Below are positions 1,190-6,001 of a stretch of DNA of 33,942 nucleotides, piece by piece. The stretch comes from Acidithiobacillus ferrivorans. GTDB lineage: Bacteria > Pseudomonadota > Gammaproteobacteria > Acidithiobacillales > Acidithiobacillaceae. The DNA is taken from assembly GCA_020723125.1 (NCBI GenBank), contig DYJM01000012.1, forward strand, positions 1-33,942, in the 5' to 3' direction. The first letter of the stretch is position 1. Every line of letters starts with the position of its first letter. The translations under genes and the position numbers were made by a program. The notes below the pieces were generated by a model that saw only the letters and a list, made by a program, of their open reading frames with translations, was not told where the DNA came from and searched no databases.

Positions 1190-4042
1190 TTATTGGCAGG
1201 CTTCACAGGTGGGATCATCAATGGCACAGGCCTTGGGCTGGTGGCCGGACACGGCATTGAGAGTGCCTGTTTGTACAGTAGATTTTTCCGCCGCTGTGGC
1301 TCCCAGCGAGCGCAGGTAATAGGTGGTTTTGAGCCCGCGCTTCCAGGCCAGACGGTAGGTTTCATCAATTTTCTTGCCGGACGGCTGGCTAAAATACAGG
1401 TTCAGACTCTGCGCCTGATCCAGCCATTTCTGACGACGCGCAGCGGCTTCGACCAGCCATTCCGGATCGGTTTCGAAGGCATTGGCATAAAGCGGCTTGA
1501 GGGCGGCAGGAATACGATCCACGGGCAAGACCGATCCGTCGAAGTATTTGAGGTCATTGACCATGACTTCGTCCCAGAGTCCCTGACGTTTGAGGTCATG
1601 CACCAAGTAGCTGTTTACCACCGTAAATTCGCCGGACAGGTTGGATTTGACGTAAAGGTTTTGATAAATGGGCTCAATCCCCTGGCTGACGCCAACAATG
1701 TTGGAAATGGTCGCCGTGGGGGCGATAGCCAGACAATTGCTGTTACGGATGCCTTTGCGAACCTTGTCCCGCAGCCCGTTCCAGTCGAGGCGCATGCTGC
1801 GGTCTAGGTCAACGCCGTGTTCACGGTTGGCAGCCAGCAGTTCGATGCTGTCGATGGGCAACACTCCCTGACTCCAGAGTGAACCCTGGAAGCTCGGGTA
1901 ACTGCCTCGTTCCTGCGCCAGATCGGCAGAAGCCTCAATGGCGTAGTAGGAAATCACTTCCTGACTGATGTCGGCAAAGGCGACGGCCGCTGGCGAAGCA
2001 TAGGGTATCCGCATTTCCAGCAGGGCATCCGAAAAGCCCATCAGACCCAGACCCACAGGACGATGGCGCATATTGCTGTTGCGCGCCTTGGCCACGGCGT
2101 AGTAGTTCATGTCGATGACATTATCGAGCATGCGCATGGCGATGCGGATGGTCCGGCTGAGCTTGTCGGTGTCCAGCAGTTCCAGCAGTTCTTCGGGCGT
2201 GCTGTCGGTGCGCAGGGCGGATTGATCGGCGCTTGCGGTATTTTTCAGGTGCGCAACCAGGTTCACGGAGCCCAGATTACAAACGGCAATTTCCTTGTCG
2301 TTGGTGTTGAGGGTGATTTCCGTGCAGAGATTGGAACTATGTACGACACCCACGTGCTGCTGCGGGCTGCGCAAATTGCAGGGGTCCTTGAAAGTAATCC
2401 AGGGGTGACCGGTTTCAAAGAGCATGGTCAGCATTTTGCGCCACAGCTGCAGAGCCGGAACTTTTTTGTACAGTTCGATTTCACCCGCATCGGCCATGCG
2501 CTCGTAATGTTCGTAGCGTTCCCGGAAAGCCGAGCCGGTCAGATCATGCAGATCTGCCGTTTCATTCGGGCTGAACAGCGTCCAGGCAGTACCACTTTCC
2601 ACCCGCTCCATAAACAGGTCGGGAATCCAGTTGGCGGTGTTCATGTCATGGGTGCGGCGGCGGTCATCGCCGGTGTTTTTGCGCAGTTCCAGAAACTCCT
2701 CGATGTCCATGTGCCAGGTTTCGAGGTAGGCGCAGACTGCACCCTTGCGCTTGCCGCCCTGGTTGACGGCAACGGCGGTGTCATTGACCACCTTGAGGAA
2801 GGGCACGACGCCCTGGGATTTACCATTGGTGCCCTTGATGAAAGAACCCAGCGCCCGTACGGGGGTCCAGTCGTTCCCCAGACCGCCGCTGAATTTGGAG
2901 AGCAGGGCGTTTTCCTTGATGGCTTCGTAAATATCGTCCAGATCGTCGCCCACGGTGGTCAGGAAGCAGCTCGACAATTGCGGCCGCAAAGTTCCCGAAT
3001 TGAAAAGGGTGGGGGTCGAACTGACAAAGTCGAAGCTGGACAGCACTTCATAAAAGGCGATGGCCTGTTCTTCACGGTCCACTTCATTGACAGCCAGACC
3101 CATGGCCACCCGCATCCAGAAAGACTGAGGCAGTTCAATATGGCGTTCGCGGACATGCAGGAAATAACGATCATAAAGAATCTGCAGGCCCAGATACTGG
3201 AAATTGAGATCGCGTTCGGGTTTGATAGCCGCTGTAATGCGGTCCAGATCATATTGACCAAGGCGCGGATCAATCAGTTCGTGGGCAATGCCGGTCTGCA
3301 GGTAATCCCGGAAGTATTCAGGATAGCGGGCGGCCATTTCGGCCTGGGTGGCAGCTTCTCCCAGCACTTCCCAACGTACCCGGTCCAGCAACAGGCGCGC
3401 AGAAACATAAGCATAGGCAGGGTCGCGCTCGATCATGATCCGGCTGGCCAAAATGGGGGCCTGAAACAGTTCATCTTCGCTGATGCCATCGTACAGATTT
3501 TTGCTGGTGTTGCTCATCAGGGTATCAACGGAAACAGCTTCGCCAAGGCCGCTGCAGGCTTCCTCAATGACGGCCCGCAAACGCTTCAGATCGAGCGCCC
3601 GCTGCGTCCCGTCCGGATATTTCACCTGAATTTGCGGTATGCCCGTCTGGGGGGCTGAAACGCTCTGTTGACGGCGTTCGCGGGCGCGCTCTTCGCGGTA
3701 AAGCACGTAGGCACGCGCGACTTCGTGTTCGCCGGCCCGCATCAAGGCCAGCTCCACCTGATCCTGAATATCTTCTATATGGAAGGTGCCACCACCCGGC
3801 TGGCGTCTTTGCAGCGCCGCAATGACCTGCCCGGTCAGACGCGTGACGAGGTCGCGCACCCGGGCGCTGGCGGCACCGCTGCCACCTTCCACGGCCAGAA
3901 AGGCTTTGGTCATGGCAATGTGGATTTTGCTGGCGTCAAAGGTGACCACCGCATTATTGCGGCGGATGACCTTGTAATGACTGGCTTCTGAGGGATCGTA
4001 TGCAGGATTGCTGACAACAGTTTGAGCGGCGGGATTGGGCAT
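1190..4042 (-). CDS. nrdA: Ribonucleoside-diphosphate reductase, alpha (R1) subunit, with N-terminal ATP-cone region(s)
   Basis: 950-aa ORF; motifs [50 protein letters not shown] and C-terminal CEAC; SD-like GGAG 8 nt before the ATG. Confidence 0.97.
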
Positions 4043-4136
4043 GTTGAGACTCCGAAGCTGGGCGTAAAGGGCCTGGAAAAAGCGTTTATGTCACGCAATG
4101 GGCACCCGGAAAACAATCGCCTGCCAGACGCCCCAC

Positions 4137-4152
4137 ACACCAAATATAGTCT
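4137..4152 (-). promoter_or_regulatory. NrdR-box-like site, proximal (ACACCAAATATAGTCT)
   Basis: 13/16 match to the remembered NrdR consensus acaCwAtATaTwGwgt; overlaps the -10 of the predicted nrdA promoter. Confidence 0.7.
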
Positions 4153-4170
4153 TGCTGGTGCTGTTGTCAA
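4143..4170 (-). promoter_or_regulatory. Predicted sigma70 promoter of nrdAB
   Basis: On the minus strand TTGACA (4170-4165), 16-bp spacer, TATATT (4148-4143). Confidence 0.7.
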
Positions 4171-4183
4171 CTACATATTGTGG
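4168..4183 (-). promoter_or_regulatory. NrdR-box-like site, distal (CAACTACATATTGTGG)
   Basis: 12/16 match to the NrdR consensus; exactly 31 bp from the proximal site; overlaps the -35. Confidence 0.65.
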
Positions 4184-4221
4184 ATGAAAGGGTGGATAAA
4201 TGGCTTGCAAGTTGTGGATAA
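4179..4221 (-). promoter_or_regulatory. Cluster of three DnaA-box-like 9-mers in the same orientation
   Basis: Minus-strand TTATCCACA (4221-4213, exact consensus), TTATCCACC (4199-4191), TCATCCACA (4187-4179). Confidence 0.6.
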
Positions 4222-4262
4222 GATAGCCAGTGCAATCATTTTGCGAAGATTTTCGAAGGGGC

Positions 4263-4458
4263 ACAAAAACGGCAGAGAACCGGGAGGCTTTTTGCTCCAA
4301 CGTCCCTTGCCTGTTGTTCCAGGGTTCATCCTGCTGTCAGGAGAGAACTCGCCCTGCGGGCTCAGACAGCTCTCCTGACGGGCGCAGGATTTCACCAGGA
4401 ACAACAACGGCGCGGGCCAAAGTCGCGGCAAAGCCTCCCGGTTCTCTGCCGTTTTTGT
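4263..4458. repeat. 196-bp nested inverted repeat / long hairpin element
   Basis: Perfect 29-bp terminal arms ACAAAAACGGCAGAGAACCGGGAGGCTTT (4263-4291) and its reverse complement (4430-4458); inner arms share GTTGTTCC, ATCCTGC and GTCAGGAGAG with their complements; central GCCC-TGC-GGGC. Confidence 0.9.
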
Positions 4459-4555
4459 TGGAATGAAGGAGTATTTCTATAAGATTAAATTTGGACTTGT
4501 TCTAATTGGTCTCTTGGGCGCATACTGACGGCATGGACTCTCAAGGAAGGATGAT

Positions 4556-6001
4556 ATGACTGCTTCAACCCTCGATATAGCGCGTGCCACCTTGTTTACT
4601 CCCGGCGGAATCAGTGAAGGGGAGCTGGAAAAAGTGTTTGGCCGACTGTCTCATCGGGCGCTGGACGATGCCGACCTGTACTTTCAGTACAGTCGCAGCG
4701 AAGGCTTCAGTCTCGAAGAAGGAGTGGTGAAAAACGGGAGTCATTCCATTGAACAGGGGGTAGGGGTGCGCGCCATTCAGGGCGAGCGGCAGGGCTTGGC
4801 CTACTCCGATGAAATTGGCGTCGAGGCACTGCTGACGGCGGCTGATGCAGCGCGCGCCATTGTCCATCAACCGGGTGAAAATCGGGGCCTGGTCTGGCAG
4901 CGGCGCAATGGGCTGTCCTTGTATCAGCCAACCGATCCGTTGGCCTCTATTCCTAATGAAGAAAAAATCGCCCTGCTGGAGCGGGTGGAGCAGGTGGCGC
5001 GGTCGGTAGACCCCCGCATTGTTCAGGTGATGGCCAGTCTGAGTGCCAAATTTGAGGCGGTGCTGGTCGCGCGGCTGGATGGCACCATGGCGGCAGACGT
5101 CCGTCCTTTGGTGCGTCTCCATGTTTCGGCCATTGCCGAGCAGGGCGGACGGCGCGAGCAGGGGAGCGCCGGTGGTGGTGGTCGTTATGATTACCAGACC
5201 TTCCTGAAAGGCCAGATGGCCGATGATTTTGCCCGCGAAGCCGCGCGTCAGGCACTGATTAATCTGGAAGCCGAAGCGGCCCCGGCAGGGAGTATGGATG
5301 TGGTGCTGGGGCCGGGTTGGCCGGGCATTTTACTGCATGAAGCCATTGGCCATGGCCTGGAAGGTGATTTCAATCGCAAGGGCACCAGTGCCTTCAGTGG
5401 TCGGGTTGGTGAGCGGGTTGCGGCTCCTGGGGTGACCGTGGTGGACGACGGTACCCTCGAAAATCGCCGGGGCAGCCTGAATGTCGATGACGAAGGCACG
5501 GAAACCCAGTGTACCACCCTCATCGAAGACGGAATCCTCAAGGGCTATTTGCAGGACACACTCAACGCCCGCCTGACCGGCACTCGTTCTACCGGCAATG
5601 GTCGTCGCGAGTCCTACGCGCATCTCCCCATGCCCCGGATGACCAATACCTACATGCGTGCGGGGGATCGGGATCCTCAGGAAATTATTGCCAGTGTCCG
5701 GCGTGGTCTTTATGCGGTGAATTTTGGCGGGGGACAGGTGGATATTACCAACGGTAAGTTCGTGTTTTCCGCTTCTGAAGCCTATCTCATTGAAAATGGT
5801 AAAATAACCCGGCCGATAAAAGGGGCGACACTGATTGGCAACGGTCCGGATGTACTGACCAGGGTTGAAATGATCGGTAATGACCTCCAATTGGATACGG
5901 GTGTGGGTACTTGTGGCAAGGATGGTCAGAGTGTGCCGGTGGGCGTTGGTCAGCCTACTCTCAAAATACGCGATCTGACGGTGGGAGGAACACAGGGTTG
6001 A
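4556..6001 (+). CDS. tldD: TldD family metalloprotease
   Basis: 481 aa; [11 protein letters not shown] metal-site motif, TNTYM and C-terminal GTCGKDGQ motifs. Confidence 0.95.

Follow-up and report, generated by a model that had tools for sequence, protein, structure and literature searches.

A rare cluster of DnaA-box-like sites overlaps a predicted NrdR operator at the nrdAB promoter of Acidithiobacillus

To our knowledge, the control of ribonucleotide reductase by DnaA has been worked out in Escherichia coli and has only been proposed elsewhere. We analysed a stretch of 33,942 nucleotides from Acidithiobacillus (the window), in which three DnaA-box-like sites stand upstream of the ribonucleotide reductase genes nrdAB and the one nearest the promoter overlaps a predicted NrdR box. 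E. coli nrdAB is under DnaA control, according to Augustin (1994) and Olliver (2010), both covered in a review (PMC8203912). Chromatin immunoprecipitation with sequencing (ChIP-seq) in E. coli found that DnaA prefers two boxes placed 2 or 3 base pairs (bp) apart, and the nrdA site gTTATCCACAaagTTATGCACTt was among those bound (PMC11317965). E. coli NrdR boxes have a reported gap of 15 bp, and those that work reach beyond the promoter on its downstream side (PMC12176259). DnaA-controlled nrdAB has its precedent in E. coli; what Acidithiobacillus adds is a DnaA/NrdR overlap that the working NrdR boxes of E. coli lack. The open literature that we searched held no report of DnaA boxes at Acidithiobacillus nrdAB or of a fixed DnaA-NrdR spacing; the NrdR paper of Rodionov and Gelfand lay outside this search.

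An initial annotation of the window had placed three minus-strand DnaA-box-like 9-mers at 4179-4221, and all three were found there in the orientation and with the number of mismatches that it gave (Table 1). In the direction of nrdA, the minus strand reads TTATCCACA, 13 bp, TTATCCACC, 3 bp, TCATCCACA, and, 8 bp further on, the -35 hexamer. The two sites closer to nrdA form a double DnaA box, TTATCCACCcttTCATCCACA, with co-oriented halves and the two-box spacing of the E. coli type. The E. coli double boxes at polA, purH, DARS1 and oriC likewise consist of two co-oriented DnaA boxes 2-3 bp apart (PMC11317965), but they serve other target genes; the Acidithiobacillaceae pair nrdAB with sites before priA and near dnaA. 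Both DnaA and NrdR act on nrdAB in E. coli, and both are predicted to do so here. Compared with E. coli nrdAB, however, the window has a third, exact DnaA box further upstream, and the double box starts 29 bp before the -35 hexamer, compared with 20 bp, by our count, in E. coli. In E. coli, by our count on the sequence, the distal DnaA box starts 39 bp ahead of the old NrdR ‘box 0’, which is close to the 38 bp found here.

The NrdR boxes came from a pair scan against ACACWATATATWGTGT. Taken together, they show 7 mismatches over 32 positions and a 15-bp gap, and they conform to the tandem-box operator of E. coli nrdDG, nrdHIEF and nrdAB, in which two 16-bp boxes separated by 15 bp lie over the promoter and nrdR is present. 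Unlike in that operator, one of the window's boxes has 5 bp (4179-4183) in common with a DnaA site, namely TCATCCACA, as the initial annotation had suggested. The window's genome carries nrdR (TIGR00244, 2.9e-62, at G000:C149), and 28 of 29 genomes have NrdR; the one in which it was not found is 71% complete. DnaA itself is 67% identical to the E. coli protein in domain IV. Sixteen of 17 checked positions are identical and all main base contacts are kept; residues R399, R407, Q408, H434, T435, T436 and A440 are the same as in E. coli.

The cluster is rare. The exact 9-mer TTATCCACA is present in 31 copies in the 2.4-Mb genome, against 8 copies of a reversed control word, and sites with at most one mismatch number 548. 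From the full counts of these sites, we calculated the number of co-oriented triplets expected genome-wide within 34 bp, measured from start to start, as about 0.004. Three co-oriented ATCCAC cores with gaps of at most 30 bp were found at two places in the genome, and at none for the control. The strict 3-bp double-box pattern GTGNATNANNNNGTGNATNA has a single occurrence in the whole genome, at nrdAB. This pattern does not capture ATATCCACAaagTTATCCACA near dnaA, but a mismatch search does: five 3-bp-spaced double boxes have at most three mismatches (control, one), of which the two best are ATATCCACAaagTTATCCACA (first, one mismatch) and TTATCCACCcttTCATCCACA at nrdA (second). A genome-wide scan had been set beforehand as the check that could overturn the reading of the cluster as DnaA sites, and similar clusters turned out not to be common. 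Elsewhere in the family, triple ATCCAC clusters also occur; the example in locus L117 sits behind an apparent plasmid replication gene.

Conservation of the sites points in the same direction. All 15 genus members whose promoter could be read have an exact distal box, and in each of them it stands at -38 from NrdR box 1. The seven closest genus members also retain the middle and proximal sites with small changes, and in a sister clade of the genus the proximal site becomes TTATGCACA or TTACGCACA. This site stands at -4 relative to NrdR box 1 in the genus and at -6 in one sister genus; in the other genera of the family it is mostly TTATCCACA or TCATCCACA, at -4, -6 or -17. Upstream of nrdA, the double-box score beats that of shuffled sequences (p <= 0.05) in 26 of 26 family promoters, and all of these boxes share the orientation of nrdA. 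Loss of the boxes in relatives, which had been named as a second way to refute the reading, was not what the promoter comparison revealed, because they are retained in close and in many distant relatives. Taken together, these results make the cluster real and its reading as DnaA sites well supported.

The distant relatives were represented by 80 nrdA promoters from other gammaproteobacterial genomes (61 families), which were taken as ranked by NrdA similarity, the promoter playing no part in the choice. A site counted as a DnaA box if it had no more than one mismatch. Co-oriented boxes were found in 47 promoters and opposite ones in 9, compared with 2 and 1 for the reversed control word. The box lies 36-39 bp before NrdR box 1 in ten families and 45-49 bp before it in thirteen. 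Additionally, seven other gammaproteobacterial families have a DnaA-like site at -4, overlapping NrdR box 1 exactly as in the window. A comparison set of 77 promoters from the first homology search, mainly from Betaproteobacteria and including 51 with an NrdR pair, had DnaA boxes in 5 and 9 promoters by strand and no plus-strand box near NrdR box 1. Where such promoters (L003-L080) do have DnaA-like boxes close to their NrdR sites, these few boxes lie on the opposite strand and mostly follow NrdR box 1 by 43-54 bp, a layout different from that of the window.

That the spacing recurs suggests that a composite DnaA-NrdR promoter existed before the genus arose. We can take this proposal further. 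There may be an old gammaproteobacterial grammar in which NrdR box 1 is preceded at a fixed distance, 38 (or about 47) bp, by a DnaA box and is often overlapped by a second DnaA-like site, so that replication status and the level of deoxyribonucleoside triphosphates (dNTPs) compete directly for one promoter. E. coli would then keep a displaced form, and the sampled Betaproteobacteria would have lost it or never had it. We give this wider proposal an even chance of being right. More broadly, an acidophile distant from E. coli has the same double box, at fixed geometry, as do many other families; this suggests that Gammaproteobacteria in general couple replication to dNTP supply.

Several observations weigh against a joint DnaA-NrdR promoter. 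Two of the three DnaA sites (4191-4199 and 4179-4187) are each one mismatch away from the consensus, and NrdR box 1 by itself matches at only 12 of 16 positions. Decay of the middle site, to TTGTGCACG or TTGCGCACC, is seen in the sister clade of the genus, and one sister genus has a weak double box, mostly with 3-4 mismatches. Most members of that sister genus have the proximal site at -17, where it does not overlap NrdR box 1, and box 1 there is a perfect ACACTATATATAGTGT. Moreover, the case for DnaA and NrdR regulation of nrdAB in Acidithiobacillus is made from sequence. Last, the CCACA part of the proximal site falls inside NrdR box 1; because CCACA is common to both, the conservation of the proximal site is partly owed to NrdR.

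The last of these points invites the explanation that NrdR acts alone, with the proximal site arising as a side effect of NrdR box 1 and chance accounting for the remaining two sites. We consider this very unlikely. The distal box lies upstream of NrdR box 1 and outside it, yet it is exact throughout the genus and has the same offset in ten other families. The 77 mainly betaproteobacterial promoters have NrdR pairs in 51 cases, but no plus-strand box close to NrdR box 1. In addition, TTAT is favoured in the 4 bp before NrdR box 1, which are not part of the box: at least three matches were found in 16 of 26 Acidithiobacillaceae, versus 0 of 26 before box 2. We rejected both chance and NrdR alone as explanations, as NrdR by itself cannot account for the distal box or for the TTAT.

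We return to joint control by DnaA and NrdR, and we think it highly probable that this region is the regulatory head of the nrdAB promoter, where DnaA at the double box and distal box sets transcription, NrdR shuts the promoter, and the two proteins probably hinder each other at the shared 5 bp. The analysis shows the sites, their rarity, conservation and geometry, together with NrdR and a DnaA that keeps the DNA-contact residues of E. coli; binding, the direction of regulation and the competition are what we infer. In our model, a DnaA dimer would sit on the double box (4199-4179), aided by the high-affinity distal box (4221-4213). The double box is centred near -53 relative to the expected start. 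By analogy with E. coli (PMC8203912), nrdAB transcription would follow the amount and nucleotide state of DnaA: low DnaA-ATP would activate from upstream of the -35 hexamer, and high DnaA-ATP would repress. NrdR loaded with dATP may bind box 1, at the -35, and box 2, at the -10, and so shut the promoter. Given the 5 bp that the proximal DnaA site has in common with NrdR box 1, DnaA and NrdR probably hinder each other. With two proteins at one promoter, replication status (through DnaA) and dNTP level (through NrdR) would be read together.

The initial annotation had proposed a replication-linked nrd control module, and this proposal is well supported by the rarity and conservation of the cluster, the E. 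coli precedent being experimental. Its suggestion that DnaA and NrdR compete at the shared site fared less evenly. The overlap geometry that it calls for is kept in Acidithiobacillus, in two sister genera and in the seven other families, but it is lost in most members of a fourth genus. Competition is plausible, and the shared site makes a direct in vitro test of how the two signals combine possible.

It could also be argued that the boxes bind DnaA without controlling nrdAB, as titration or reservoir sites. A high-affinity box next to a double box does resemble E. coli datA, DARS1 and DARS2 (PMC11317965). We nevertheless regard this as unlikely, because a titration site needs neither fixed spacing nor orientation, whereas the spacing of these sites to NrdR box 1 and to the promoter is fixed, and their orientation is that of nrdA, without exception in the family and for the most part in many other families. 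Furthermore, an adjacent repeat (4263-4458) comes and goes while the boxes stay in place. This repeat, between the DnaA boxes and pmbA, is a nested palindrome of about 200 bp with 29-bp perfect outer arms and has no Rfam match; about 40 similar places occur in the genome. It is present in loci L084/L001 and absent from L082 and L083, and because of this patchy presence among relatives it looks like a mobile element of the miniature inverted-repeat transposable element type.

Double boxes elsewhere in the genome bear on which protein reads these sites. The best, ATATCCACAaagTTATCCACA (G000:C11:12022-12042), lies about 1.4 kb upstream of dnaA (C11:9318-10616) and recurs in the genus with the spacer ‘aag’. 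Another of the five, CCATGCACAgacTTATCCACA, stands just before priA, the primosomal helicase gene (G000:C206:9121-9141, locus L148), and much of the genus has it as TCATACACAgacTTATCCACA or a close variant; a double DnaA box just before priA was seen in many Acidithiobacillaceae (also L155, L159 and L163). This suggests that priA is also under DnaA control. Given the double boxes at all three places, nrdAB, priA and the dnaA region look like a compact predicted DnaA regulon in the manner of E. coli. As DnaA occupancy in Acidithiobacillus is read from the DNA sequence, some other transcription factor with a TTATCCACA-like site might bind at nrdAB instead. We find this extremely unlikely: the 9-mer and the 2-3 bp double spacing are DnaA's own, the same genomes carry the motif close to dnaA and ahead of priA as well, and domain IV of DnaA retains all main contact residues.

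ATATCCACAaagTTATCCACA belongs to an AT-rich stretch (G000:C11:11800-12120; L127 and L172) between a short-chain dehydrogenase gene and an unknown gene; the stretch is conserved in the family and is a candidate oriC. A perfect 2-bp double box, TTATCCACAagTTATCCACA, lies near a recombinase-like gene (G000:C285:318-337, L153) and probably belongs to a mobile element or plasmid.

NrdA of the window is 98% identical to that of A. concretivorus ATCC 19703. The promoter, TTGACA and TATATT separated by 16 bp, agrees with the consensus at 11 of 12 positions.

Table 1. Coordinates of the nrdAB genes, the promoter and the predicted DnaA and NrdR sites in the window
Feature	Position	Strand	Remarks
Distal DnaA box TTATCCACA	4213..4221	-	exact consensus; its start lies 38 bp before that of NrdR box 1
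DnaA-like site TTATCCACC	4191..4199	-	one mismatch; upstream half of double DnaA box
DnaA-like site TCATCCACA	4179..4187	-	one mismatch; downstream half of double box (3-bp gap)
NrdR box 1 CCACAATATGTAGTTG	4168..4183	-	overlaps start of -35
-35 hexamer TTGACA, nrdAB promoter	4165..4170	-	consensus match
NrdR box 2 AGACTATATTTGGTGT	4137..4152	-	covers -10
-10 hexamer TATATT, nrdAB promoter	4143..4148	-	near-consensus
nrdA, class I ribonucleotide reductase large subunit with ATP-cone, 950 aa	1190..4042	-	PF02867 4.9e-189, PF00317, PF03477
nrdB, class I ribonucleotide reductase small subunit, 371 aa	54..1169	-	PF00268 7.9e-88

An Rfam scan of 4000-4600 found no RNA. On the far side of the promoter, a pmbA/tldD homologue (4556-6001) is oriented opposite to nrdA and nrdB. 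Upstream of pmbA, at 4491-4505, nearly all family members carry a conserved element, TTGGACTTGTTCTAA (in relatives the opposite strand reads TTAGAACAAGTCTAA), which looks like a candidate regulator site.
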